A model generated the notes under the pieces. The model made no database searches. It was not told the DNA's origin and saw only the letters and a list, made by a program, of their open reading frames with translations. The translations under genes and the position numbers were made by a program. A stretch of DNA of 64,000 nucleotides from Flavivirga abyssicola (GTDB lineage: Bacteria > Bacteroidota > Bacteroidia > Flavobacteriales > Flavobacteriaceae). Below, piece after piece: positions 6,176 to 30,457 of the stretch (position 1 is its first letter; every line of letters begins with the position of its first letter). Location: positions 585,501-649,500 of the forward strand of contig NZ_CP141266.1 of NCBI RefSeq assembly GCF_030540775.2, written 5' to 3'.

Positions 6176-8293
6176 ATGATAGATTTAAGGCATGAATTAT
6201 CAATAAAAGAATGGCTCATTGATGCCCTTCCTCATGAGGTGATATGGGCTTCAGAAGATGGCAAAATTGTATATGCAAATGCTAAATTTTGCATACGCCT
6301 AGGTTATAAAAAGTCTGAGCTAATGAAGCTTTCCATCTTTGACATCAACACTACAGTTACTAAAGAAAGTTGGATAGAACATTGGGAAGAAATAAAAAGA
6401 GAAAAGGTTCTAAATTTTAAAGCGGTTCATAAAAACAAAAGTGGAAAGTTTTACGATGTTGAAGTTTTTGCTCAATTTTTCTCAAATAATGGAAAAGAAA
6501 TGATTTGCTCCATCATTAGTGACATTACAACTTCCAGCTTCAACGAAAATTTATTGCGAAATACCGAAGCTATTGCTCATGTTGGAGGCTGGAAATTAAA
6601 TTTACAAGATGGTTCTATAATTGTAACGGAAGAAGCTTTAAGGATTTTTGAAACTCAAGACAGAGAGAATTTCACACCAGGTAAGGCTATTAAATTTTTT
6701 GCAAATGAAAAAAAAGCTAAAAATTTATTTAGAAATGTGTTGAGAGGTTCTCAAGAATTTGACGAAATATTAGAGACCAAATCTGAACCAAAAAAATTCA
6801 TAAGAGCAATAGCTAAACCTATTTTCAAAGGAAAAAAGGTCATAAACATAACAGGCATTTACCAAGATGTTACCGAGCAGTATCAGAAAGCTAGCACTTT
6901 AAAATTTTTCAAAGAAATTATAGATAATGCCCAGGATTTAGTATACGTTTATAATCGCAAGGGTACTTTATTGCATTATAGCGATTCTGTTTCAAAACAG
7001 TTAGGTTTTTCCCGAAAAGAGCTGGATAATTTTTCTATTTTTAATCTAGACTCCAATATAACACAAGAATGGTGGTATTCTCATTTTGATGAATTGAAAG
7101 AGAAAAGATCAATGCATATGGAGTGGTTAGTTACTAGAAAAGATGGCACCAAATTTCCTGCTGAAATTGTTGCTAATCATTTAGTATATGAAGGGCAAGA
7201 TATTAATTGTGCTGTTGTAAGAGATGTTACAGAAAGGAAAATGAGAGATTTAAAACTTTTTGAAGCATTAGAAGAGATAAAGTCCCTTAAAGAACTTCTT
7301 GAAAATGAAAACGAATACCTGCAGGAAGAAATTAGCAGTAAAATTAATTACGATAATATAATCTGTAAAAGTGCTGCTTATGAAAAAGTTCTCGAACAAG
7401 TAAATCAAGTAGCTCCAACAGATACTACCGTTTTAATTACTGGCGAGTCCGGAACAGGAAAAGAACTCTTAGCAAGGGCATTACATAATAACAGCCTAAG
7501 ACAAAACAGGGCACTCATTAAAATAAATTGCGCAACATTACCTAAAGAACTTATAGAAAGTGAATTGTTCGGACATAAAAAAGGGGCTTTTACCGGAGCT
7601 GTAGCCGATAAAGTTGGGAAGTTTGCTCTTGCCGATAATGGCACCATATTTTTAGATGAAATTGGAGAAATGCCCATAGATTTACAACCTAAATTATTGC
7701 GGGTACTACAAGAAGGTGAATTTGATGAATTAGGAGGCTCTAAAACAATAAAAGTTAATGTTCGTGTTATTGCCGCCACCAATAGGCATCTTGAAAAAAT
7801 GATTAAAGAAGGGGCTTTTAGGGAAGATCTTTACTATCGTTTAAATGTCTTTCCAATACATAATATCCCTTTACGTGCTCATAAGGAAGATATTCCATTG
7901 TTAGCTCAGTACTTTTTAAAAAAGTATTCTTCTAAAGCAGGTAAGGCTTTTAAAAGGTTATCAAAAAAAACAATTGATGTCTTGATGGCATATAATTTTC
8001 CAGGAAACATTAGAGAGTTAGAAAATTTAATTGAACGTGCTGTTATAGTTGAAAGGGGAACAACGCTAAACCCAGGTAGTTGGATGCCAAAAATGAATGG
8101 AAACATAAACTTTGATGATTTTAAGTCATTTGAAACAATGCAGCGCGATTATATAATTAAAGTGTTGAACTATACCAATTGGCGAGTTAGTGGAAAAAAG
8201 GGGGCTGCCACTATACTTAATATGAAAGACAAAACTCTTTTTGCTAAAATGAAGCGGTTAGGGATTGAGAAAAAGATAGTCTTGAAAAATTAG
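6176..8293 (+). CDS. sigma-54-dependent transcriptional activator with tandem PAS sensor domains
   Basis: A 705-residue enhancer-binding protein. About residues 10-350 hold three PAS-type sensor segments (the clearest at 10-120 and 240-350), then a coiled linker and the AAA+ domain with Walker A GESGTGKE, the sigma-54-contacting loop GAFTGA, and Walker B GTIFLDEIGE. The C-terminus has a Fis-type helix-turn-helix (NWRVSGKKGAATILNM). The intact GAFTGA loop indicates true sigma-54 activation. The protein lacks transmembrane segments, so it should sense a cytoplasmic ligand, redox state or light through PAS. It is transcribed divergently from the pirin gene set, its most likely target. Confidence 0.9.
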   Translation: MIDLRHELSIKEWLIDALPHEVIWASEDGKIVYANAKFCIRLGYKKSELMKLSIFDINTTVTKESWIEHWEEIKREKVLNFKAVHKNKSGKFYDVEVFAQFFSNNGKEMICSIISDITTSSFNENLLRNTEAIAHVGGWKLNLQDGSIIVTEEALRIFETQDRENFTPGKAIKFFANEKKAKNLFRNVLRGSQEFDEILETKSEPKKFIRAIAKPIFKGKKVINITGIYQDVTEQYQKASTLKFFKEIIDNAQDLVYVYNRKGTLLHYSDSVSKQLGFSRKELDNFSIFNLDSNITQEWWYSHFDELKEKRSMHMEWLVTRKDGTKFPAEIVANHLVYEGQDINCAVVRDVTERKMRDLKLFEALEEIKSLKELLENENEYLQEEISSKINYDNIICKSAAYEKVLEQVNQVAPTDTTVLITGESGTGKELLARALHNNSLRQNRALIKINCATLPKELIESELFGHKKGAFTGAVADKVGKFALADNGTIFLDEIGEMPIDLQPKLLRVLQEGEFDELGGSKTIKVNVRVIAATNRHLEKMIKEGAFREDLYYRLNVFPIHNIPLRAHKEDIPLLAQYFLKKYSSKAGKAFKRLSKKTIDVLMAYNFPGNIRELENLIERAVIVERGTTLNPGSWMPKMNGNINFDDFKSFETMQRDYIIKVLNYTNWRVSGKKGAATILNMKDKTLFAKMKRLGIEKKIVLKN

Positions 8294-8463
8294 ATATCAG
8301 CTGTTTTTTGGGTTCTGCTTTTTGTCTTTAGGTAGTTTAAATTATTAAGAAGTAGAACTAAACATTGATAAATACCACTGTTTTAAAATTAATTATTTTA
8401 GTGTATATATAACCACTAGTATTACATATCTATCTTAGTCACAAGTTAAAAACACAGCACAAA

Positions 8464-9030
8464 TTGAACGAAATTAGAAAATTTATTGAACATATCTCTC
8501 CAATGAACGATTCTGATTGGCTATTTTTCTCATCGAAGCTACAGCAAGTAACACTAAAAAAACATGCTGTCTTATTGAAAATGGGAGAGACTGAGAACTA
8601 TTTATCTTTTATAACAAAAGGAATAGTCAGACTTTATATCCCAAGAGAAGAACATGATTTAACTTTTGGATTTTTATTTGAAAATGAATTTGTTACAGCT
8701 TATGATTCGTTTTTATCTCAAGCTCCTTCAGAATATCAACTTGATACATTAACAGAAACTGTTCTATGGAGAATTTCGAATAAAGATTTACAAGAGGTCT
8801 ACAAAAGAACAAACAGCGGAAATATTATTGGACGAAAAATGGCTGAATATATGTTTTTAATAAAATCAAAGAGAGAACTTTCATTATTAAGTAAAACAGC
8901 TGAAGAACGCTATTTAAATTTATTCTCAGATCGTCCAAAATTATTACAGCAAATTCCATTAAAATATATTGCCTCATATATTGGAGTTACTCCGCAAGCA
9001 TTGAGCAGAATAAGAAAACGCATTACTTAA
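8464..9030 (+). CDS. Crp/Fnr-family transcriptional regulator
   Basis: A 188-residue regulator of the Bacteroidota Crp/Fnr group: N-terminal cyclic-nucleotide-binding-like beta-roll (about 25-115) and a C-terminal helix-turn-helix (IPLKYIASYIGVTPQALSRI). The cAMP-contacting residues of Crp are not evident and there is no Fnr cysteine cluster, so the ligand is unknown. The start is TTG at 8464, chosen because family members begin with the IRKFIEHISP-like helix; the next ATG at 8503 would remove it. It lies just upstream of a DoxX-like gene in the same direction and may control it. Confidence 0.8.
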   Translation: MNEIRKFIEHISPMNDSDWLFFSSKLQQVTLKKHAVLLKMGETENYLSFITKGIVRLYIPREEHDLTFGFLFENEFVTAYDSFLSQAPSEYQLDTLTETVLWRISNKDLQEVYKRTNSGNIIGRKMAEYMFLIKSKRELSLLSKTAEERYLNLFSDRPKLLQQIPLKYIASYIGVTPQALSRIRKRIT

Positions 9031-9093
9031 CTTGCATTCATTGTTTTTATTTTGGTCTTTTCTGACCTTTGTCTTTTAATAATTCAGAAAAAC

Positions 9094-9546
9094 ATGAAAC
9101 CTTTAATTATACTTTTATCAAGTTTTATAATCTCCATTTTTATAATTAAAATTATCAAAAAAGACTATGATTTTGCCCTATCCGCAAGAATTGCAATGTC
9201 GATAATGCTTGTGTTTACAGCTATTGGCCATTTTGCTTTTACAAAAGGGATGTCAATGATGATACCAAAATTTATCCCTTTTAAAGAAGGTTTTGTTTAT
9301 CTAACTGGAATATTCGAAATACTATTAGCATTAGGTTTATTAATTCCTAAATTTAAAATAGTATCTGGGTGGACACTTATCATTTTTCTACTTTTAATGC
9401 TACCTGCTAACATATATGCTTCCATAAATAATGTGAATTATCAAAAAGGAACATTTGATGGACATGGCATCACGTACTTATGGTTTAGAATTCCTTTGCA
9501 AATCTTTTTTATTATCTGGACATATGTAAGTACAATCAGGGTTTAA
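9094..9546 (+). CDS. DoxX-like integral membrane protein
   Basis: About 150 residues with four predicted membrane helices, including GLLIPKFKIVSGWTLI, and the pattern of small DoxX-like proteins (a first helix, then a conserved GHF/IPKFIPF segment). DoxX relatives are inner-membrane proteins linked to quinone or redox chemistry, but many have no assigned role. An in-frame TTG at 9052 exists; ATG 9094 was chosen since it starts the first membrane segment directly. It follows the Crp/Fnr regulator by 63 bases. Confidence 0.6.
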   Translation: MKPLIILLSSFIISIFIIKIIKKDYDFALSARIAMSIMLVFTAIGHFAFTKGMSMMIPKFIPFKEGFVYLTGIFEILLALGLLIPKFKIVSGWTLIIFLLLMLPANIYASINNVNYQKGTFDGHGITYLWFRIPLQIFFIIWTYVSTIRV

Positions 9547-20337: not shown

Positions 20338-20360
20338 TTTTTATTTCTAAAAAATTGAAA

Positions 20361-21662
20361 CTAATTATATGTTAACACTTCTCTAAATTGATAAAATAAA
20401 CGTTCTGCAACGCTTAAATCTTCAGTTACAATTTCTGCATTACCTAATAGTTCTTGGGTAAATTTAAATGTTTTATTATAGGATGTTTTTGTACCATCTG
20501 GCAACGAAATATAAACAGTATAATTCCCTTCCTTATCAGGAGAAATTGAAAAATCTGTTACTTTACCAATTAACATACCATATTGTTGATATGGATAATT
20601 ATCTAATTTTATAAAAACTTTTTGACCTATTGAAACTTTTCCAGAATTTTGTGCTGGAATAACCAATTTTCCAACCAGATTAGTAGTATCAACAGGTAAA
20701 ACAGAAAATACAATACTACCATTTGGAACAAATTGATTAGAACCCCAATATTCTTGAAAACTAACGACACCTTCTATAGATGAAGATAACACATAATTAT
20801 ATTCCCAGCTTCTTATAGCATCCTTTAATAAACTATAGGATTGTATCATATTCCTCAATAATTTAGTATTCTGTTCTTTCTCATCAATATGCGTTTTCTT
20901 TAAGTTTTGATTTGCAGACCCTATGGCTTCTCTCATTTGAGAAATTGATATAGCCATACTACTTATATTCTTTTGCATTTGTATAAACTCCAACTCCTTT
21001 AACTCATAATTTTGTTTAGAAATAATACCCTTTTCATATAAATGCTTTTGTCTTTTGTATTGTGTTTCTTTTAATTTAAATTCTTGCTCTAAAAGATCTT
21101 TTTGTATAATCTGACTCCTAAGTCTCTCTTGTATCTCTTTAAGTGAAGTTCTATTTCCCTTCAACTGGTTTGTGTAAGGATCTAGATCTTTTAATAGAAA
21201 ATAATCCGAATAGCTCTTTTCAAAATTTATATAAGCCGATTCAATATCTCCTAGCACTAAATAAGTTGTTTCTTCAAATGGGAATGTAAAACTTTCTATA
21301 ATTAATGGTATAGTATCTATAATACTTTTTAGTTTATAAACATCTTTATAATTAGCTATATTTTTTATAATGGCTAGCTTCTGGTTAACTTTTACTGTAT
21401 CTCTATTCTTTATAAAAATTTCATCTAATTGCCCTGAAGACCTAGAAACAACTTTTTCAGTTGGCATTTTAGTAGTAACTAACACCTTAGCGGTAACAAA
21501 ATCTGGGTATTTAATTATAACGGAAAGTATTAAGATAATACAAGTAAACATAAAAATCAATGTAATTCCCCAACGCACAATCCATATTGGCGGATTTGAC
21601 AATATTTCCTGTACTTCTTCTGATCTTAAACTTAATTCGCTTTGTTCAACTTTATCAGGCAT
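20361..21662 (-). CDS. HlyD-family membrane fusion protein of the peptide exporter
   Basis: A periplasmic adaptor of about 433 residues: a short cytoplasmic N-terminus, one membrane helix (about 34-55, RWGITLIFMFTCIILI), a biotinyl-lipoyl-like half motif, a long coiled-coil hairpin (about 150-290) and a beta-barrel C-terminal part (FVPNGSIVFSVLP). It links the inner-membrane ABC exporter to a TolC-like outer-membrane channel, which is not encoded here. ATG 21662 (MPDKVEQ) was chosen; a GTG at 21671 is also in frame. Either way it overlaps the ABC gene, indicating coupled translation. Confidence 0.88.
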   Translation of the reverse strand: MPDKVEQSELSLRSEEVQEILSNPPIWIVRWGITLIFMFTCIILILSVIIKYPDFVTAKVLVTTKMPTEKVVSRSSGQLDEIFIKNRDTVKVNQKLAIIKNIANYKDVYKLKSIIDTIPLIIESFTFPFEETTYLVLGDIESAYINFEKSYSDYFLLKDLDPYTNQLKGNRTSLKEIQERLRSQIIQKDLLEQEFKLKETQYKRQKHLYEKGIISKQNYELKELEFIQMQKNISSMAISISQMREAIGSANQNLKKTHIDEKEQNTKLLRNMIQSYSLLKDAIRSWEYNYVLSSSIEGVVSFQEYWGSNQFVPNGSIVFSVLPVDTTNLVGKLVIPAQNSGKVSIGQKVFIKLDNYPYQQYGMLIGKVTDFSISPDKEGNYTVYISLPDGTKTSYNKTFKFTQELLGNAEIVTEDLSVAERLFYQFREVLTYN

Positions 21663-23862
21663 CCTTATCACTTAATTTTTCTAATTCTAATTGATTCTTT
21701 ACCAATTCATAGTATGCACCCTGTAACTTTAATAATTCACTATGTTTTCCAGATTCTTTTACTTTTCCATCGTCAATAACAACAATCTGATCTGCATTTT
21801 TTACTGTACTTAAACGATGGGCAATAATGACAACTGTTTTATGTTTAAAAAAGGTCTTTAAATTTCCCATAATAATACGTTCATTCTTGGCATCTAAAGC
21901 AGACGTTGCTTCATCAAAAAACAATATATCAGGGTTTTTGTATACTGCTCTGGCAATAAATAAACGTTGTTTTTGTCCTGTACTTAACCCTACTCCTTCG
22001 TTACCAATTTTGGTATTAAAACCTAAAGGCAACGATAGTATAAAATCGTAAATATTAGCAACTTTAGTGGCTTTGATTAAATGTTCTTGATCAAGACTAT
22101 CTTCACCAATGGCAATATTATGAGCAATCGTGTCATTAAATACATAACCTTCCTGCATCACCACACCACAATTGGCTCGCCAAGCTTTATGAGATAATGT
22201 GTTTAAATAGTGTTCTCCATACAAAACAACTCCTTTATCAATATTATAAAACTTTAATAATATTTTCATTAATGTTGTTTTTCCACTACCACTAGCTCCT
22301 ACAATAGCGGTTATTTTATTAGCTGGAATATACATACTCAATCCTTTTATAACATACTCGTCACTACCTAAATACCTAAACATTATATCATTAATTTTAA
22401 GGTCTTGATTTTTCTTAATAGTTGTTATTAAATATGTTTCTCTACTCTCCTCATCATCTTTTTCGTGTACTTCACCTAAACGTTCTAAACTAATTTTAGC
22501 ATCTTGTACCGATTGAATAAAACCAACTAATTGCATAATGGGACCATTTAATTGCCCTATTATATATTGAATAGAAAGCATCATCCCTAAAGTAATAGAA
22601 CCTTCTATAACCAATAAAGCAGAAGTAAATGTGATAATTATGTTTTTAGCTTCATTAATAAAAGATGATCCAACACTCTGGGTTTGCTCTAATGCTAAGC
22701 TTTGCATAGACACCTTAAAGAGTCTGGCTTGTACAAATTCCCATTTCCAACGCTTTTGTTTTTCGGCATTATTCATTTTAATTTCTTGCATACCGTTAAT
22801 AAGCTCTATAACGGTACTTTGTTCTTGACTCATTTGAGTAAAACGCTTATAGTCGAGATCTTTTCGCCGCTTTAAGAAAAATAATATCCAAATAGTGTAA
22901 ATGGTACTTCCAATAGCAAAAATAAAAAAGATGGATGGGCTATAATAAATAAGAACAGCTCCAAACACAAACAAATTAAACATAGAAAACAAGGTATTTA
23001 GTGTAGACCCTGTTAAGAGACTTTCTATACGACTATGGTCATTGATGCGTTGCATAATATCTCCAGTCATTCTGGTATCAAAATAAGCAATGGGCAGGTT
23101 CATGAGTTTTATAAAAAAATCAGACACCAACGAAATATTAATTCTTGTGCTTAAGTGCAATAAAATCCAGCTTCTAAAGACCCCCACACTTGTAGTACCA
23201 AAAAACAACATGATTTGAGCAATGAGCACCATATAGATAAAATTAATATCCTGGTTTTGTATCCCTACATCTACTATACTTTGGGTTAAAAATGGAAATA
23301 TTAGTTGCAACATACTCCCTACCAATAAACCAATAACTAACTGTAGTAGTAATCCTTTATGTTTAAATAGATATTGAAATAAAAATCGAAATGATTTTTT
23401 ATCAACCTCTTCCCAATTATGTTGTTTAAATTTTGGAGTGATTTCCAAAAGCAAAGTAATTCCTTCTTTTGTATTTTCTGTGGCATTGTTCCCTATCCAT
23501 GATTTTATAAACTCTTCTTTAGTATAAGAAACAAGTCCATAAGAAGGGTCGGAAATATAAACCATATCCTTTTTTATTTTATACACCACCACAAAATGGT
23601 TTTTATTCCAGTGTACTATAAGGGGTAAAGGCGCCTCTTTTAGCTTATTAAAATCTAGTTTTGCGCCTAGAGATTTAAATCCAATCGCTTCGGCAGCATC
23701 GCTTAACTTCAATAAATTACTACCTATTCTTGTGGTTTCAGATAGGTCTCTTATATCTTGTAATGAGATTAATTTACCATAATGTTTAGCAACAATTCGT
23801 AAACATGTTGGCCCACAATCTTTTGAATCTGGTTGTTTATAAAAGGGGAAGGTTTTTTTCAA
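21655..23862 (-). CDS. peptidase-containing ABC exporter (C39 protease, double-glycine leader type)
   Basis: A 735-residue PCAT. Residues 1-125 are an active-looking C39 cysteine protease: Gln10, Cys16 (DCGPTC), His89 (KNHFVVVY) and Asp105 (ISDPSYG). Then come six membrane helices (about 165-440) and an ATPase domain with Walker A GASGSGKTT, signature LSTGQKQRL and Walker B ILFFDEATSALD. Such exporters cut the leader after Gly-Gly and transport the core peptide. The start is TTG at 23862, overlapping the TGA of the broken TlpA fragment. It is the obvious exporter for the cysteine-rich precursor upstream. Confidence 0.93.
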   Translation of the reverse strand: MKKTFPFYKQPDSKDCGPTCLRIVAKHYGKLISLQDIRDLSETTRIGSNLLKLSDAAEAIGFKSLGAKLDFNKLKEAPLPLIVHWNKNHFVVVYKIKKDMVYISDPSYGLVSYTKEEFIKSWIGNNATENTKEGITLLLEITPKFKQHNWEEVDKKSFRFLFQYLFKHKGLLLQLVIGLLVGSMLQLIFPFLTQSIVDVGIQNQDINFIYMVLIAQIMLFFGTTSVGVFRSWILLHLSTRINISLVSDFFIKLMNLPIAYFDTRMTGDIMQRINDHSRIESLLTGSTLNTLFSMFNLFVFGAVLIYYSPSIFFIFAIGSTIYTIWILFFLKRRKDLDYKRFTQMSQEQSTVIELINGMQEIKMNNAEKQKRWKWEFVQARLFKVSMQSLALEQTQSVGSSFINEAKNIIITFTSALLVIEGSITLGMMLSIQYIIGQLNGPIMQLVGFIQSVQDAKISLERLGEVHEKDDEESRETYLITTIKKNQDLKINDIMFRYLGSDEYVIKGLSMYIPANKITAIVGASGSGKTTLMKILLKFYNIDKGVVLYGEHYLNTLSHKAWRANCGVVMQEGYVFNDTIAHNIAIGEDSLDQEHLIKATKVANIYDFILSLPLGFNTKIGNEGVGLSTGQKQRLFIARAVYKNPDILFFDEATSALDAKNERIIMGNLKTFFKHKTVVIIAHRLSTVKNADQIVVIDDGKVKESGKHSELLKLQGAYYELVKNQLELEKLSDKDA

Positions 23863-24081
23863 TGATTATTGTTTTTTAAAAGGCTATCAATTGTTTTTTG
23901 TAAATAATCTTCTTTCATGTTTTTTACAATTATTTTACATTCTTCATCGGCTAGAAGTTTAAATGGTATTTCAAATATGTTGTATTGTTTTGCTAAGTCT
24001 CCTTTAAATCCTGTTGTACCAATAACATTTTCCCTAATCCCCCTACTTTAATAGCCTTCAACCAACTTTCACGACTCTTCC
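23859..24081 (-). pseudogene. C-terminal fragment of a TlpA-like thioredoxin protein, frameshifted
   Basis: The minus strand encodes SRESWLKAIKVGGLGK, then after a one-base shift in a G/A-rich run near 24030 continues VIGTTGFKGDLAKQYNIFEI and a C-terminal tail ending at TGA 23859-23861. This matches the last 70 residues of TlpA/AhpC-type proteins, including the cis-Pro segment (EIPFKLLADEE). The CxxC half is missing. The fragment begins exactly where a 45-bp repeat ends, so it was cut by a rearrangement. Its stop overlaps the TTG start of the ABC exporter, a remnant of an intact operon. It differs from the neighbouring complete TlpA gene, so it is not a recent copy. Confidence 0.7.
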
Positions 24082-24126
24082 CAAGGTTTGTGTCTATTCT
24101 TCGCGAAAGAATATTGTTCTTAGCCC
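24082..24126. repeat. 45-bp perfect direct repeat, copy 1
   Basis: Identical over 45 bases to 26107-26151. It contains the stem ATTCTT, CGCGA, AAGAAT. Here it lies between the complete TlpA gene and the truncated TlpA fragment, and ends exactly where the fragment begins. The flanks differ from copy 2 on both sides. Confidence 0.9.
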
Positions 24127-24149
24127 GAAGTAACCCTCCTTAAACTTTA

Positions 24150-25712
24150 TTATTTTATATCATCAATAATTCTTTGAAAAACTATACTATTAGATGGTCT
24201 AGGTGCATTATTCAACACAATCTGATTCTGTCTATTAAAAATAAGATATCTAGGAATCCAACTGATTTTTAACGACTTAGCCAACACAGATTTTTTACCA
24301 TTTAAGACTAAATACTGATTTCTAACATTTAAAAACTCTTTTAGTTGTTCTGATTTTTTTAACCATTTATCTTTTTCTTCATCTATAGATAAATAAATCC
24401 ATTCTACATTATTTTCTATAGAAAGTTTATCTCTAAACGATTTCACTTCTTGTATTTCCTTTACACATGGGGGGCACCAACTTGCCCAAAAATCTATTAC
24501 TCTAATCCTTTTATTAGAGCGATTAAAAACCTCCTTTAAAGTTAAGGTATCTCCATATTTATTTAATAATTTAGTACTTAAAGCGCTCTCAGATAATTTG
24601 AAGTTAAAAGCATTCAAGTCTTCTTTTATTTCAGTCATGTACATTTTGGAAATTCTATCAAACTTACCTTCATATTCATCAATTAACGAAATCATAAATT
24701 TGGCATTTTCAATATCATAACCAAATCCTTTAATATGATAATCTATAATCATTCCTGATATAGCATAGTTATGCAATTCTTTGTCTATATTTTTTTCGAT
24801 AAATCTTTTTTCTGCTAAAAATTTTTCTTTAGAATAATCGATATGTTTAGAGTTTTCAAAATAGTTCCTTATGTAAAGATTTAGATTTTCTCTAAAAAAT
24901 TTATTATTTAGCAAATCTGGTCTATTAAAATCATTTAACGAAATATCAATAAAATATTCGTTTAAATCGAAAAAAGTTTCATTATAACCAAATTCTTTAG
25001 CAACTAAAGAATTAAACCCATCTAATTTAGGATAATATAGGCTATCATTAATCTCATTTAATCGTGTAAACTTTGACCTAGGATTCATTAGTTCATATAA
25101 ATATTCTTGTTTTAGATCATCTTTTACAAAATCAATAAAACTAGAAGAAATTATCTGGTTATCTTGAATATATCCGTTCAAAAAAGCTATCTTTTTTGAA
25201 TAAATTGATTCAACTCCTTTCTTATAGTCAAAAAGATTAGAATTATAAGCATTATATTTATAAGAGGGGCATTTTTCATATAATTCAATATAGAAATTAT
25301 TAACTATAGCATTCGCTCCTAAAAATTTAAGTCTTCCATTTTTTATTTCGAAGTTAATAGTATCTCCAGATCTTAAAAATAGTTTTGTTATATAATATTT
25401 AGCCTTGCTATTAGCAGTAAACTCCATTAATCGCGGTTTTTTTATATTATTCAACAATAAGAAGACTGAATCATTATGCCTTTGGTATATATCTCCTTCA
25501 TTTTTCCCAAAGTAATAAGTCATATCAATGATATTTATATAGTCTAAAGCTTCAAGATCATCAGACTTTCCAAAAATTACAACTTGATTACTTTTGTTTC
25601 TATATTCTTCTTTTATTTTATAATTTTGCTTGACTTTATTTTTTTCATTTGACTTAGAACACCCAATGATTACAATAAAAACTATTAAAATATATTTGAC
25701 TTTTTTGTTCAT
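24150..25712 (-). CDS. TlpA-like thioredoxin-domain lipoprotein
   Basis: A 520-residue envelope protein: lipobox VIIGC with Cys18, a long N-terminal region with no recognised domain (about 20-370), and a C-terminal thioredoxin-fold domain with WASWCPPC (Cys413 and Cys416) and cis-Pro in SWIPRYLIF. TlpA-type proteins reduce or isomerise disulfides in the periplasm. It follows the ten-cysteine precursor by 85 bases across a hairpin, so it probably proofreads disulfides of that peptide or keeps the VKOR-Trx partner working. The size of the N-terminal part is usual for Bacteroidota TlpA lipoproteins. Confidence 0.85.
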   Translation of the reverse strand: MNKKVKYILIVFIVIIGCSKSNEKNKVKQNYKIKEEYRNKSNQVVIFGKSDDLEALDYINIIDMTYYFGKNEGDIYQRHNDSVFLLLNNIKKPRLMEFTANSKAKYYITKLFLRSGDTINFEIKNGRLKFLGANAIVNNFYIELYEKCPSYKYNAYNSNLFDYKKGVESIYSKKIAFLNGYIQDNQIISSSFIDFVKDDLKQEYLYELMNPRSKFTRLNEINDSLYYPKLDGFNSLVAKEFGYNETFFDLNEYFIDISLNDFNRPDLLNNKFFRENLNLYIRNYFENSKHIDYSKEKFLAEKRFIEKNIDKELHNYAISGMIIDYHIKGFGYDIENAKFMISLIDEYEGKFDRISKMYMTEIKEDLNAFNFKLSESALSTKLLNKYGDTLTLKEVFNRSNKRIRVIDFWASWCPPCVKEIQEVKSFRDKLSIENNVEWIYLSIDEEKDKWLKKSEQLKEFLNVRNQYLVLNGKKSVLAKSLKISWIPRYLIFNRQNQIVLNNAPRPSNSIVFQRIIDDIK

Positions 25713-25745
25713 ACCATCTTAACTATTGTTTAATTATACAATTAG

Positions 25746-25792
25746 AAAGAAGCCGATAAAATATATTTTATGATATAACTATCGACTTCTTT
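25746..25792 (-). repeat. intercistronic hairpin after the precursor peptide gene
   Basis: AAAGAAGCCGATA pairs with TATCGACTTCTTT (13 positions with one G-T) around a 21-base loop, 6 bases past the peptide stop. No T tract follows on the minus strand. It probably protects the upstream peptide mRNA or attenuates read-through into the TlpA gene. Confidence 0.5.
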
Positions 25793-25797
25793 AGGGT

Positions 25798-26058
25798 TTA
25801 AATTCCCGTACAAATATAATTACCATTACATCTCAAACTGCACCAAGAACAGTTTGGATGATAGACACCTGGATCATTCCAACCAAGACATCTACAAAAA
25901 GCATCCCCACCATCAGGCATACACGTATCATTTACACAAGATCCTACAAAACAATCAATGTCATGAAAGCATTCTTCTCCATAACCCCCACTAATTTTAC
26001 GCTGTTGGTCCCTGTTTAAAACCTCAGCGTTACTTAAACTAAATTTTATTTTTTTCAT
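25798..26058 (-). CDS. double-glycine-leader precursor of a ten-cysteine secreted peptide
   Basis: An 86-residue precursor. The leader MKKIKFSLSNAEVL followed by KISGG is the Bacteroidota double-glycine leader type (natural-product precursor family, TIGR04149-like), with predicted cleavage after Gly25. The 61-residue core has ten cysteines in the pattern C-x5-C-x4-C-x4-C-x8-C-x-C-x12-C-x2-C-x3-C-x5-C, enough for five disulfides, and carries eight acidic against two basic side chains. It lies inside a cluster with a C39 ABC exporter, HlyD, VKOR-thioredoxin and TlpA. An antimicrobial or signalling role is possible; the acidic charge is unlike most membrane-active bacteriocins. The core is not recognised. 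Confidence 0.88.
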   Translation of the reverse strand: MKKIKFSLSNAEVLNRDQQRKISGGYGEECFHDIDCFVGSCVNDTCMPDGGDAFCRCLGWNDPGVYHPNCSWCSLRCNGNYICTGI

Positions 26059-26077
26059 TTTTAAAAATTTAATAAAT

Positions 26078-26085
26078 TATATTTG
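26078..26085 (+). promoter_or_regulatory. TAnnTTTG box for a possible plus-strand small RNA
   Basis: TATATTTG is an exact -7 match on the plus strand, pointing away from the precursor gene. No TTG lies 18-19 bases upstream, so support is partial. Confidence 0.35.
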
Positions 26086-26091
26086 CCTCGA

Positions 26092-26176
26092 ACAGTTTAA
26101 GACACTCAAGGTTTGTGTCTATTCTTCGCGAAAGAATATTGTTCTTAGCCCAAAGCACTTGTTTTGGGCTTTTTGT
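26092..26176 (+). ncRNA. candidate structured small RNA with intrinsic terminator
   Basis: Between the precursor start and the VKOR stop the plus strand shows a -7 box, then three stems: AGACAC/GTGTCT (26100-26120), ATTCTT/AAGAAT (26121-26137) and AGCCCAAA/TTTGGGCT (26147-26170) followed by TTTTGTTTT. This order looks like a promoter-hairpins-terminator unit of about 85 bases, opposite to the surrounding operon. The same stems also exist on the minus strand and could be an intercistronic mRNA structure. Existence of the RNA is inferred only. Confidence 0.4.
26107..26151. repeat. 45-bp perfect direct repeat, copy 2
   Basis: Identical over 45 bases to 24082-24126, 2,025 bases away. In this copy the left flank completes a stem (AGACAC) and the right flank completes a terminator hairpin; copy 1 lacks both. 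The two copies bracket the precursor and TlpA genes. Confidence 0.9.
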
Positions 26177-26179
26177 TTT
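26147..26179 (+). terminator. intrinsic terminator reading on the plus strand
   Basis: An 8-bp stem AGCCCAAA/TTTGGGCT with 8-base loop followed by TTTTGTTTT on the plus strand. No T tract exists on the minus strand, so it does not end the VKOR transcript. No plus-strand protein gene precedes it. Confidence 0.6.
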
Positions 26180-27770
26180 AATCAAATACGTCCTTTAAAT
26201 CATCTACAGTATACTCTTCAGGGAGTTCATACCCATTGATAAATATGGTTGGTGTATATGTTATATTTTCAACATCGCACCAAGTACTCATAGCTTTTAT
26301 TTTGTAGTACTGTTTTTCTAGTTCTCCGTTCATAGGATATTTGTTTGCAAATACCTCATAATCCTTTTGCTCAGCATGATACCAATCATCTAAAGCTTGT
26401 TGTGTTTTCTTTATATCACCCTGAGCTTCAATAGCTAAAAAATGACTAACTGGTTTTGCATTTGCATCCTTACCATCTGCTTTAGCTGTAAATAGTATTT
26501 GCAAATTTATTTTGCCAGTATTTACCAAATCTTCGAGTGCTGGATGGACCTTAGCACAAGGTCCACAATAGGGGTTACATACTTTTACAACATGGTATTT
26601 AGCGCTTTCATTAATTATAGATATACCTAAACCTTTCGGATTAGTAGTCATTTTTCTAGATTTAACCAATAAGCCTTCTAATACATCAGGATTGTGCTTT
26701 ATTTTTTTAAGCCCTCTTTTGTAAACATTTGTTTCTTTTTCTTGCTCTAATAATGGTTTTAGTAATTTCCATATTAAAATAGGAAGTAGAACCAAAGCAA
26801 ATAGCAAAGGAAGTTTTTCAATTGCTAGTGTGCTTTGATAGTAATTGCCAGAAAACATAATTGTAATTTCTACTACCAATACTGCTTGTATAATAATACA
26901 GAATTTACACCACTGCTTGATAATAAATGCTTGATAATAAACAGAAACTAAAACAATTGGTAATGTTAAAAAACTTGATAGGCTTAAAACTGATAATGCC
27001 GATAATGAGAAACCACTAACAACTAAAAATATAAATGTTGCAAAAAAATAAGAAAACCCTATAATGCTTAAACTCAAAGTACCACTAAATATCTTTGCAT
27101 ATTTAGAATTTAATACGGCATTACAATTTACTTTTCCACTACCACCTGAACAAAAACTTTGTAATGTTGGGTTGTGTTTATCCACATCAAACCAAAGCAA
27201 CAAGACCCCAACTATAAGACCAATAAGTTTTAAAACAGTAAAAACAATAACAGAAACAGTAGATGAGATATTAGTTGTTATTTCGGAATTTAAAAATGTA
27301 ATTCCAATCCAACTTAACAACAAGACAGAAATACTACCTTTTAATATATTAAGCGTACGTTTAGACTTCAGTTTCTCTTCTATATTAATTTCTTTAGATT
27401 CCTTTGATGCTTCTGCCAAAAGACAAACTCCTGTCCATTTCTTTAAAAAATATTCTTTAGATAATGTTACTAGTTTACTTTTGTCATCATAATACAACAC
27501 CTTATCTTCAAGCACTTTATGTAGTACAAAAAACAAAGGTGTTCTATCAACCTTTAACTGTATAATGCAAGGCAATGGTATTTCTGTAAGTTTTCCGGCA
27601 TCTATTTTTACTGCTAGAGTTTCTATATTATATTTCTCTAAAGTATCTGAGATTGATAATAAACTAGGATAGTCAGCATGTGATATAATTGTGTCTTTTA
27701 AATACTTTGAAGTATTAGCAATGCCATATGCATTTAGAAGACTCTTGGTAACTTGTATACAATTATCCAT
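26178..27770 (-). CDS. triple fusion: C39-like domain, VKOR disulfide-forming membrane domain, thioredoxin
   Basis: A 530-residue inner-membrane protein. Residues 1-120 resemble the C39 peptidase fold but the His and Asp of the PCAT are replaced (LFFVLHKV, YYDDKSK), so it is probably a non-catalytic leader-binding domain. Residues 145-335 form a vitamin K epoxide reductase domain with four or five helices, loop cysteines Cys207 and Cys216, and the active CxxC Cys288/Cys291 (WCKFC). The C-terminal thioredoxin-like domain has CGPC at 402-405 and cis-Pro in YTPTIF. It would pass electrons from substrate thiols through Trx and VKOR to quinone, making disulfides. First gene of the export cluster, followed by the ten-cysteine precursor. 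Confidence 0.9.
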   Translation of the reverse strand: MDNCIQVTKSLLNAYGIANTSKYLKDTIISHADYPSLLSISDTLEKYNIETLAVKIDAGKLTEIPLPCIIQLKVDRTPLFFVLHKVLEDKVLYYDDKSKLVTLSKEYFLKKWTGVCLLAEASKESKEINIEEKLKSKRTLNILKGSISVLLLSWIGITFLNSEITTNISSTVSVIVFTVLKLIGLIVGVLLLWFDVDKHNPTLQSFCSGGSGKVNCNAVLNSKYAKIFSGTLSLSIIGFSYFFATFIFLVVSGFSLSALSVLSLSSFLTLPIVLVSVYYQAFIIKQWCKFCIIIQAVLVVEITIMFSGNYYQSTLAIEKLPLLFALVLLPILIWKLLKPLLEQEKETNVYKRGLKKIKHNPDVLEGLLVKSRKMTTNPKGLGISIINESAKYHVVKVCNPYCGPCAKVHPALEDLVNTGKINLQILFTAKADGKDANAKPVSHFLAIEAQGDIKKTQQALDDWYHAEQKDYEVFANKYPMNGELEKQYYKIKAMSTWCDVENITYTPTIFINGYELPEEYTVDDLKDVFD

Positions 27771-27922
27771 AAGTAGGAATTAAGTATTAAAATTAATAAT
27801 CAAGTAAACAGGGACTTAAATGTAAGAAATTTATCTGTAAGTTTTTATTTTCAAAATGTTAAATTATTATTAAGCCTATTGTCCTTTAGGTAATATTAGT
27901 ACTTTTATTAAATTATGATCTA

Positions 27923-28437
27923 TTAATGTGATTGAATAATTGTCATTGCTGTTATCTTAGACAAGATTTTGTTTTTAAATCCATCGAAAGATTTAGTGTA
28001 ATTCCTTCGAATTATAAATTGATCATATGGTTGGGAAAATAATGTTTCAATACGTTTTCTGGGTTTCTTGAAAACATTAAGGTTGTTCTTTATAATTATG
28101 TTGGTTGACTCTCATAGGTATTTCAAGCTTAATATTATGACTTTCAAATAAGTCTAGCTTATATTCTGCTAATAAACAACCTCTATCCCCAAGTAATATA
28201 CAATCCCTGAGTTGATATTGCATATCTTTCAAGTGGTTGATACCATGTACACTAGTAGGACTAATATTCAAGCTCTCAATGGCACCTTACTCAGAACAAA
28301 CAGTATGAAGTTTATAACCATAATAATGAGCCGATTGACTAGCACATTAACCTTTACCAAATCCAACTAAAATCAAAAACAATATCTTAAAAAGAGATTC
28401 CTGGTAAGACATATCTCTTTATTCAACACAAACGTCA
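27923..28437 (-). pseudogene. decayed IS982-family transposase
   Basis: Interrupted minus-strand reading frames match the IS982 transposase: SAHYYGYKLHTVCSE, then (28077-28271) NISPTSVHGINHLKDMQYQL with LLGDRG and PMRVNQH, then after a frameshift near 28078 RKRIETLFSQPYDQF and a tail ending at 27923. At least two stop codons and one frameshift are present and the N-terminal half is missing. Terminal inverted repeats were not found. The rest of 27771-28498 has no gene. It separates the peptide cluster from the par genes. Confidence 0.8.
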
Positions 28438-28498: not shown

Positions 28499-29581
28499 AT
28501 GAACAAAATAATTGCAATCGCTAATCAAAAAGGTGGCGTTGGTAAAACTACTACGTCTATAAATCTGGCAGATGCATTAGGTATTCTTGAGAAAAAAGTA
28601 CTTTTAATAGATTTAGATCCTCAAGCTAATGCTACTTCTGGTGTTGGCCTTGTTCCTTCTAATATTAGGTATAGTAGCTTAAGCTTCTTTACAAATACAT
28701 TTAAAGCTCAAAACAATATTATAAAACCTGAATTTGCACATTTTGATTTTATACCTTCCAACATACGTCTAGCATCTATAGAAATAAATAAATCGAAATC
28801 TGTTGATTTATTTATGTTAAAAACCGCACTTTCCAGTATTATAGAAAATTATGAGTACATCATAATAGACTGCTCACCTTCATTTGGGTTGTTAACCCTT
28901 AACGCCTTAACTGCATGCCATTCGGTAATTATACCTGTACAATGCGAATTCTACGCCTTAGAAGGTTTAAGTAAACTACTTGTTACTATAAAAAGTATCA
29001 AGAAATCATCTAATCCAGATATTGATATTGAAGGTTTATTAATTACTATGTTTGATTCAAGAACAAGTCTATCAAATCAATTACGGGTAGAATTAACTAA
29101 ACATTTTAAGTCCATGGTTTTTAATACAGCTATACGAAGAAATGTCAAGCTAAGAGAAGCTCCTAGTTATGGCTTAAGTATCATAAAGTACAATCCAGAT
29201 AGCGTTGGTTCTAAAAATTATCTAAATTTAGGTTCAGAATTAATCAGCAAAAATAAAATAACAGCTACAGATCCGGAACTTGAAAAAGATCTATCTAAAA
29301 TCTTAACACATGATACAGAAGATGTAGATTATATAATAAAAGGCCATACAACCACTAATGACAAAAAAGAAGAAGATTATAGCCACTTAATAGGCTTAAA
29401 AAGAGACGAAATAGATAATGTATTGGGGTTTTCTTATAATGACATCCATTCAGATGTATGGATGTACAGAACTAGTACCTCATTTAGTTTAATAAAAAAA
29501 AATTACTTATACTTATATTTTGAAAACGAAAAAGTTACAGAATATAAACTCACAACATTTAAAATAAACAAGGTTCAGTAG
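28499..29581 (+). CDS. ParA paralogue with an extra C-terminal domain
   Basis: A 360-residue ParA/Soj-type ATPase. The deviant Walker A KGGVGKTTT (residues 11-19), DLDPQANATSG and IIDCSPSFGLLTLNAL are intact, so it should bind ATP. Residues 1-255 align closely with the true ParA encoded 112 bases downstream, but this copy carries about 100 more residues; the last 65 (LIGLKRDEIDNVLG and W-Y, then LYLYFENEKVTEY) recall the SmpA/BamE fold. DNA-level similarity to the next gene indicates duplication. Role unknown; it may modulate chromosome segregation or position another cargo. The paralogue has diverged more than the canonical copy. Confidence 0.85.
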   Translation: MNKIIAIANQKGGVGKTTTSINLADALGILEKKVLLIDLDPQANATSGVGLVPSNIRYSSLSFFTNTFKAQNNIIKPEFAHFDFIPSNIRLASIEINKSKSVDLFMLKTALSSIIENYEYIIIDCSPSFGLLTLNALTACHSVIIPVQCEFYALEGLSKLLVTIKSIKKSSNPDIDIEGLLITMFDSRTSLSNQLRVELTKHFKSMVFNTAIRRNVKLREAPSYGLSIIKYNPDSVGSKNYLNLGSELISKNKITATDPELEKDLSKILTHDTEDVDYIIKGHTTTNDKKEEDYSHLIGLKRDEIDNVLGFSYNDIHSDVWMYRTSTSFSLIKKNYLYLYFENEKVTEYKLTTFKINKVQ

Positions 29582-29692
29582 TTATCATTAAAAATAAATT
29601 AATACCAGTTTTTTTATCAAAAATCATTACCTTTCGCTCATATTTTCTTATACAAAAAGCTTATATAAAATATAACAAAACCAAATCATTTC

Positions 29693-30457
29693 ATGGGTAA
29701 AATTATTGCAATTGCTAATCAAAAAGGAGGTGTTGGTAAAACAACGACATCTATAAATTTAGCTGCTTCATTAGGAGTTCTGGAAAAAAAAGTATTATTA
29801 ATAGATGCTGACCCTCAGGCAAACGCAACTTCAGGAATAGGAATAGACATAGAATCTATAGAAATAGGAACCTACCAACTTTTAGAGCATTCTAATTCGG
29901 TTAGAGAGACTATAATGAAAACGGAGTCGCCTAACCTAGATATTATTCCTGCGCATATAGATTTGGTTGCTATTGAAATAGAGCTTGTTGATAAGGATGC
30001 TCGTGAATATATGTTAAAAAAGGCTTTAGCTGATATTAAAAACGATTACGATTACATTTTAATTGATTGTGCACCGTCTTTAGGCTTACTAACATTAAAC
30101 GCTTTAACTGCAGCTGATGCCGTTGTCATACCAATACAATGTGAATATTTTGCATTAGAAGGATTAGGAAAATTATTAAATACCATAAAAAGTGTTCAAA
30201 AAATTCATAATCCAGAACTTGATATTGAAGGGTTACTGTTAACCATGTACGATGCCCGATTAAGACTGTCTAATCAAGTGGTTGAAGAAGTCCAAAAGCA
30301 TTTTAATAATATGGTATTTCAAACCATTATTCAACGTAATGTACGCTTAAGTGAAGCACCTAGTTACGGAGAAACCATAATTAATTATGATGCTAGTAGC
30401 AAAGGTGCCAACAATTACTTAAGTTTGGCAAAAGAAATTATCAATAAAAATCCCTAA
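29693..30457 (+). CDS. parA: chromosome partitioning ATPase ParA (Soj)
   Basis: A 254-residue canonical ParA with deviant Walker A KGGVGKTTT, Walker A-prime DADPQANATSG and Walker B-type ILIDCAPSLGLLT. It forms ATP-bound dimers on DNA and with ParB moves chromosomal origins apart. Normal length, no extensions. It is followed 5 bases later by parB, the usual pair. Confidence 0.95.
   Translation: MGKIIAIANQKGGVGKTTTSINLAASLGVLEKKVLLIDADPQANATSGIGIDIESIEIGTYQLLEHSNSVRETIMKTESPNLDIIPAHIDLVAIEIELVDKDAREYMLKKALADIKNDYDYILIDCAPSLGLLTLNALTAADAVVIPIQCEYFALEGLGKLLNTIKSVQKIHNPELDIEGLLLTMYDARLRLSNQVVEEVQKHFNNMVFQTIIQRNVRLSEAPSYGETIINYDASSKGANNYLSLAKEIINKNP

Follow-up and report, generated by a model that had tools for sequence, protein, structure and literature searches.

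A 64,000-nucleotide stretch of the Flavivirga abyssicola genome (RefSeq assembly GCF_030540775.2, contig NZ_CP141266.1, positions 585,501 to 649,500; hereafter the window) carries a five-gene operon on its minus strand, which probably was acquired horizontally and would make and export a multi-disulfide peptide, likely for antagonism, by way of a leader grip, oxidation by a VKOR-thioredoxin protein and cleavage by the exporter. C39 ABC exporters cut double-glycine (GG) leaders and export their cargo together with HlyD and a TolC-like partner, and VKOR and thioredoxin make disulfides. In the proposed mechanism, a catalytically dead C39-like domain of a C39-like/VKOR/thioredoxin fusion would hold the GG leader of the precursor, and the VKOR-thioredoxin part, fed by quinone, would oxidise the core cysteines to up to five disulfides. 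The intact C39 domain of the exporter would cut after the GG, and the ABC exporter and HlyD, with a TolC-like partner from elsewhere, would export the core, while the TlpA lipoprotein would probably proofread or reshuffle the disulfide bonds on the other side of the membrane. Oxidation of the core by the fusion is proposed because its redox cysteines are invariant and because it is associated with cysteine-rich cores.

The genes run in the order fusion, precursor, TlpA, exporter and HlyD, with gaps of 119, 85, 287 and -17 bp (Table 1); the last value is a 17-bp overlap of the exporter and HlyD genes, and the exporter lies 1.9 kb downstream of the precursor. As the original prediction, made from the sequence letters, had it, all five open reading frames (ORFs) are open on one strand at the positions given, and the precursor has a KISGG leader end and a 61-residue core with ten cysteines and a net charge (K+R minus D+E) of -6. 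The Pfam domains agree with the names given to the genes. That prediction had also called the cluster complete: the five genes are present, but the word is slightly too strong, as the TolC partner is absent from the block. It made no mention of the dead C39-like domain, the decayed TlpA-like piece, the 49-bp repeats or the insertion of the whole block described below.

Four VKOR cysteines of the fusion (C207, C216, C288 and C291) and two in its thioredoxin domain (C402 and C405) are invariant in 23/23 close and 51/51 distant relatives. The loop cysteine pair and CXXC of the VKOR family are kept in 74/74 relatives, and PF07884 scores over its cut-off. An hhalign comparison matches the N-terminal domain to the C39 domain of the exporter with a probability of 98.7, but the aligned positions do not preserve the catalytic Cys and His, so that the N-terminal domain does not qualify as a C39 peptidase. 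In the exporter, C16, H89 and D105 are present in 47/47 aligned sequences including the window's, which makes it a peptidase-containing ABC exporter (PCAT), the group of PCAT1 and ComA. The fold model of the fusion has a mean pLDDT of 80.7 and a pTM of 0.51. Fold searches matched its N-terminal domain to 3k8u, to the leader-bound 6mpz and to the HlyB C39-like domain 3zua (TM-scores of 0.75, 0.75 and 0.71 by target length). The fold is likened to those of the PCAT peptidase of ComA and of the HlyB domain, in which catalysis is likewise lost, and that of the C-terminal domain to BdbD/DsbA-like proteins. In PCATs and HlyB the domain is joined to a transporter, whereas in the fusion it is joined to an oxidase. 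Because the C39-like fold is dead and adjoins an oxidase, the modelled domain is most simply read as a grip for the leader. That it is instead an active second protease that trims the leader beforehand is most improbable. The Pfam C39 match has an E of 1.5e-14, 15/23 close relatives carry a Cys at residue 4 that might be the nucleophile, or a remnant of it, in a displaced position, and a class-level copy, L153, retains the His and Asp of the HFVV and DPG motifs; but the family does not conserve the aligned catalytic Cys and His, and no Cys stands there in L153.

The leader of the precursor (MKKI...KISGG) has 25 residues. Its KISGG end, the leader profile of the family and the nearby C39 exporter mark it as a double-glycine leader, with predicted cleavage. 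Pfam gives no match for the precursor (E up to 1) and NCBIfam a single one, below threshold (E 0.24); leader_Chryseo NF047798 and TIGR04149, which describe GG-type leaders in Bacteroidota like those of the present family, do not match it at E up to 1. When 10 relatives were scanned against these two models, eight matched one or both below threshold, one matched neither, and one from the same order (L003) passed NF047798. Assignment of the core to a known family was rejected, with no Pfam or NCBIfam match over cut-off and a best PDB match (an evasin, E 0.77) that was treated as chance.

Occurrence of the fusion and its cysteine-rich peptides

The fusion occurs in 18 loci of named genomes whose genera (for uncultured organisms, family) are placed in Flavobacteriaceae and at 65 places in 53 of 397 sampled genomes of the family (E up to 1e-30, at most three candidates scored per genome). 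Besides the window's own, 74 distinct fusion genes were collected, 63 from the 64 other places (one fragment was excluded) and 11 from the named genomes; by tblastn, they fall into a close group of 23 genes (40-68% identity) and a distant group of 51 (24-30%). For the 68 with at least 6.5 kb of downstream sequence, an exporter (sought within 8.5 kb) lies downstream of 49, HlyD of 46, a leader-type peptide of 55 and, with the TlpA of the window as query, a TlpA-like gene of 15; exporter, HlyD and peptide all lie on the fusion strand in 39. Co-occurrence of the five genes had been suggested as a check, and the arrangement recurs at many of the 74 other genes and is therefore not due to chance.

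A leader profile spanning the leader and about three core residues found 111 distinct peptides downstream on the strand of the 74 fusion genes versus one on the opposite strand; its seeds were picked partly for cysteines, and the search used no cysteine filter. The 107 parsed cores (4 peptides were dropped) have a median length of 40 residues, a median net charge of -3 and, in 93 cases, an even number of cysteines, and no parsed leader contains a cysteine. The acidity remarked on earlier in the window's core is thus typical of the family: the cores are hypervariable, most of them are acidic and most have an even number of cysteines, and the machinery is conserved. Peptides are arrayed, up to 7 per fusion locus; L066, L075, L080 and L087 each encode 6-7 different cysteine-rich GG peptides with similar leaders.

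A survey centred on the exporter covered 93 places in 77 of the 397 genomes, with no more than two candidates scored in each. The fusion lies within 12 kb of 7/8 exporters with 74% identity or more to that of the window (itself counted; 6/8 on the same strand), of 32/61 at 60-68% identity and of 2/24 below 60%. With one generic, cysteine-blind leader filter applied to both sets of loci, at least four cysteines were present in 99/102 cores beside fusion and exporter (51 loci, 46 with a peptide) versus 8/26 beside related exporters without the fusion (40 loci, 16 with a peptide; some of the 26 may be chance ORFs), a contrast with a Fisher p of about 4e-13, uncorrected for kinship. Seven of those eight cysteine-rich cores come from L189 and L190; the genome of L189 has fusions elsewhere, and that of L190 is not among the fusion matches of the family survey. 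At L180, where the exporter is 86% identical and the stretch holds no fusion, the core has one cysteine. Both the gene co-occurrence and the cysteine-poor GG peptides beside fusion-less exporters back the predicted function in export and disulfide maturation. The core is cysteine-rich and acidic, as would also suit a metallothionein-like metal binder, with VKOR and TlpA serving another substrate; we consider this very unlikely, given that cysteine-rich cores associate with the oxidase fusion and that their cysteine counts are mostly even.

Several observations weigh against the proposed function. No exporter lies within 8.5 kb downstream of the fusion in 19/68 loci, 13 of which keep the peptide, and a downstream leader-type peptide is missing in 13/68, three of which have one upstream and ten none on that strand (58/68 have a same-strand peptide when upstream ones are counted). 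The number of cysteines is odd in 14/107 cores, and kinship among the fusion loci makes the counts interdependent. Among 197 other genomes, none has a homologue that spans the window's core in full. The original prediction had named precursor homologues without the exporter or VKOR gene as evidence that would count against it, and such homologues exist in weak form, as partial matches of 34-35% identity over 41-59 residues from a different genus in the order; homologues of the fusion or the exporter are absent within ~9 kb of them. Leader binding by the C39-like domain is a prediction from its fold, and the secretion, disulfides and role of the peptide are predicted as well.

Named plasmid records hold VKOR-type relatives with a PCAT in Emticicia, Aureibacter, Spirosoma and Parabacteroides, although records labelled as plasmids that carry housekeeping genes may be chromosome fragments; in a second Parabacteroides record, the fusion is split into two genes, with no PCAT in view. 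On the Emticicia conjugative plasmid pEMTOL01 (L178, 4719-15545), VKOR, two small ORFs, TlpA, PCAT and HlyD follow one another, flanked by a sensor histidine kinase and a LytTR regulator upstream and by TolC downstream. In Parabacteroides distasonis (L177, 1935-10196), a VKOR fusion is clustered with a small cysteine-rich ORF, DUF4369, a LanC-like gene, two glycosyltransferases and a PCAT. Flavobacterium undicola (L005) and F. sufflavum (L006) have the fusion, exporter and HlyD with no peptide detected between them; L006 has a ten-cysteine GG peptide upstream on the opposite strand. Radical-SAM or lanthipeptide modification was considered and rejected for the window, whose island has no such ORF; none was found among the 6 accessory proteins of relatives that were scanned with Pfam (104 accessory ORFs were listed). 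Against this rejection stand the LanC-like gene of one Parabacteroides copy and, ~4 kb upstream of the copy in Emticicia, a gene labelled "thiopeptide-type bacteriocin biosynthesis".

Likeness to bacteroidetocins and the role of the peptide

The bacteroidetocin operons of Bacteroidales, as described in PMC6671954, the source of all statements about them here, consist of genes for a transmembrane (TM) protein, a GG precursor with cysteines, a thiol oxidoreductase and a C39 ABC exporter. They are horizontally acquired, and these four genes suffice for activity from Escherichia coli; activity is attenuated when the TM protein or the thiol oxidoreductase is lost, and neither gene protects. These operons are also reported to have no immunity gene, like the cluster in the window, for which the original prediction pointed out the lack of an obvious one. 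The gene order is the same as in the window, whereas HlyD, present in the window, is not in the four-gene set. Bacteroidetocin leaders have 15-16 residues and cores 42-48, compared with 25 and 61 in the window; bacteroidetocins A and B have four cysteines and that of P. oralis an uneven number, compared with ten. Because the leader and core sizes disagree, the window peptide is not filed as a bacteroidetocin; it is bacteroidetocin-like in layout. The TM protein of those operons is described as unknown, with five TM regions, whereas that of the window is a recognisable fusion. No C39-like/VKOR/thioredoxin fusion is described among the literature matches listed, subscription journals being mostly outside the search.

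Antagonism of related bacteria is the likely role by analogy, because the machinery is conserved, the cores are hypervariable and the gene order is that of bacteroidetocins. A role as a signal or developmental peptide would agree with the acidic cores, the arrays of up to 7 peptides per locus and the histidine kinase and LytTR genes directly upstream of the Emticicia plasmid copy, but two-component genes are absent from the window's island, and hypervariable cores would require equally variable receptors, none of which is seen in the island, and we regard this alternative as unlikely. If the fusion oxidises the leader-tethered precursor on the cytoplasmic side, as proposed below, it would count among the enzymes that modify ribosomal peptides, with the disulfide itself as the modification, and would be present in many Bacteroidota, possibly including bacteroidetocin producers. 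In this widespread system, a leader-recognising dead protease domain appears to bring a dedicated oxidase to one peptide substrate, which would explain how multi-disulfide peptides are made in such bacteria, suggest what the unexplained TM protein in bacteroidetocin operons may be and turn the fusion gene into a search handle for many unstudied cysteine-rich peptides.

Membrane topology of the fusion

The fusion model and family hydropathy predict six helices, one of which (142-160) precedes the VKOR core; among the 73 measurable of 75 sequences, the hydropathy of this helix reaches 1.3 in 99% and 1.6 in 90%. A simple scan of the window's fusion alone found no more than five segments, of which one runs across the TM2-TM3 turn. 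With six helices, the C39-like domain, the thioredoxin and both cysteine sites of the VKOR come to lie on one side, whose loops hold a mean of 15.0 lysines and arginines (K/R) versus 1.0 on the other, with loops of different lengths. The K/R density of the helix flanks is 0.198 versus 0.037 per residue, in the same direction in 75/75 sequences. By the positive-inside rule, the K/R-rich side is the cytoplasm, so that the cysteine sites, the C39-like domain and the thioredoxin would face the cytoplasm. The C39-like domain starts at Met1, with no signal peptide ahead of it.

Controls differed in what they indicated. Structure 4nv6 has 2 K/R in its periplasmic cysteine loop and 3 in the shorter cytoplasmic TM2-3 loop, and for two standalone VKORs from the class the numbers are 4 and 6 in the cysteine loops and 0 and 1 in the TM2-3 loops; because these standalone proteins have similar loop charges, the core loops are weak evidence for topology. 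The VKOR-thioredoxin proteins of cyanobacteria (PDB 3kp9, 4nv6; a copy from Chroococcidiopsis) likewise join VKOR to a thioredoxin-fold partner with paired cysteines, but they lack the C39-like domain and the extra N-terminal helix and have the opposite charge pattern. The K/R numbers of the full Chroococcidiopsis protein, in segments drawn by hand, are 3, 3 and 1 in cytoplasmic and 1, 1 and 0 in periplasmic segments, and after TM5 it has 0 K/R in 33 residues compared with 6.4 in 25 in the fusions; no GG peptide was seen adjoining its gene at the one locus viewed.

Our tentative proposal, held at nearly even confidence, is that the VKOR is inverted: the C39-like leader binder, the quinone-coupled cysteine pairs and the thioredoxin would all be cytoplasmic, and disulfides would be made in the leader-tethered precursor before cutting and export. 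An inverted VKOR reportedly exists in Aeropyrum, as a title cited in PMC12453122 also suggests. If correct, the fusion could give a cytoplasmic disulfide-making tool. A plausible though somewhat doubtful alternative is that cutting and export come first and that the VKOR-thioredoxin part oxidises the peptide in the periplasm, where bacterial VKORs and the TlpA partner are established to act, with the C39-like domain serving as a scaffold or exporter contact; a conventional bacterial VKOR has its N-terminus inside and its active site and thioredoxin outside. The poor discrimination by the core loops, which are K/R-rich around the cysteines of standalone VKORs too, is compatible with this order of events, whereas the six predicted helices with a K/R-rich cysteine and thioredoxin side in 75/75 sequences, the C39-like domain without a preceding signal peptide and the opposite charge pattern of the conventional cyanobacterial protein speak for the inverted arrangement.

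The island and the precursor-TlpA cassette

The operon lies in an island next to a gene that we take to encode methylmalonyl-CoA mutase and that is present in all 12 genomes of the genus examined. In 11/11 other congeners, the window sequences from ~18.1k to 20337 and from ~28435 onward align next to each other, about 50 to 670 bp apart, so ~8.1 kb was inserted in this lineage; loss in all other congeners is a less simple alternative. The precursor was not found in these 11 congeners, and the fusion had no match in two congeners included in the 397-genome sample. One of two broken transposase-like pieces at the island edge has a weak Pfam match, and the other has none. The G+C content of the island (0.27-0.32 versus 0.29-0.38 around it) is a weak compositional signal. 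A Bacteroidetes-type promoter motif was not found upstream of the fusion with two patterns.

Table 1. Features of the operon and the surrounding island, with positions counted from the first letter of the window
Feature	Positions	Strand	Basis or remark
Island with operon, ~8.1 kb	20338..28434		between methylmalonyl-CoA mutase gene (presumed) and parA-like gene
HlyD-family adaptor	20361..21671	-	PF13437 (HlyD_3) E 4e-11
PCAT, TTG start	21655..23862	-	PF03412, PF00664, PF00005
Active-type C39 peptidase domain of exporter	23488..23850	-	Pfam, residues 5-125; triad conserved
Open piece like C-terminal part of decayed second TlpA-like gene	23859..24047	-	tblastn E 0.001 to 0.012
49-bp direct repeat, copy 1	24082..24130		98% identical to copy 2
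TlpA-like lipoprotein, lipobox Cys18, WCPPC motif	24150..25712	-	Thioredoxin_8 E 6.5e-12; fold model
Precursor, 86 residues	25798..26058	-	leader 25984-26058; core 25801-25983, 10 Cys; leader common to family
49-bp direct repeat, copy 2	26107..26155		98% identical to copy 1
C39-like/VKOR/thioredoxin fusion, 530 residues	26178..27770	-	Pfam C39, VKOR and Thioredoxin_4; fold model and fold search; 74 relatives
DsbA/BdbD-like thioredoxin domain of fusion (C402, C405, T506-P507)	26187..26612	-	PF13462
VKOR domain of fusion (C207, C216, C288, C291)	26865..27245	-	PF07884 E 1.2e-15
C39-like domain of fusion, dead by sequence, proposed leader grip	27396..27770	-	aligned Cys/His not conserved; fold
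Broken transposase-like pieces in different frames, island edge	27923..28271	-	one weakly matches PF01609 DDE_Tnp_1, E 0.03, sub-cut-off

The 49-bp repeats flank the precursor and TlpA genes; with up to 3 mismatches allowed, their 40-bp core occurs just twice genome-wide. The tblastn matches of the decayed piece ahead of the exporter are thioredoxin-like stretches in three relatives, and in relatives a thioredoxin-like gene often stands immediately ahead of the exporter. From the bracketing repeats and this TlpA-like remnant before the exporter, we infer that the precursor-TlpA cassette came in beside an older one and partly displaced it.

TlpA residues C18, W412, C413 and C416 are invariant in 9/9 aligned sequences. 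Comparison of sequences is suggestive of TlpA being matched to core type, with a Mantel r of 0.42 (18 of 5000 permutations), a Spearman value of -0.02 and a partial r of 0.42 given fusion similarity (42 of 10000), in a set of 14 pairs (5 TlpA genes with no parsed peptide were dropped) where the signal leans on few clusters; yet L114, whose TlpA is 42-44% identical to the window's, has a different core. The C-terminal six-cysteine pattern of the core, a regular expression written after viewing three cores and searched in 4406 small ORFs of 118 loci, some overlapping, was found in the window, L010 and L021 (L061 being the same gene as the latter) and nowhere else. Each of these cores lies directly upstream of TlpA, either the window's own or one 46-47% identical to it. 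A fourth locus, L081, also has a TlpA of this kind, together with a stretch that lacks a leader but carries the same cysteines; a truncated fusion gene stands there (7586-9302) beside this leaderless remnant core of the window's six-cysteine type. At L054 (3531-6972), a Porph_ging protein, presumably GLPGLI-like, and a large CarbopepD_reg-like protein (sub-cut-off) take the place of TlpA, and L062 looks similar by eye.

Next to the island, window positions 28499-30457 hold two tandem parA-like genes of 360 and 254 residues, the first of them longer by an additional C-terminal part. The congeners have alignable sequence for both regions, and the two copies also cross-match at ~72-84% DNA identity.

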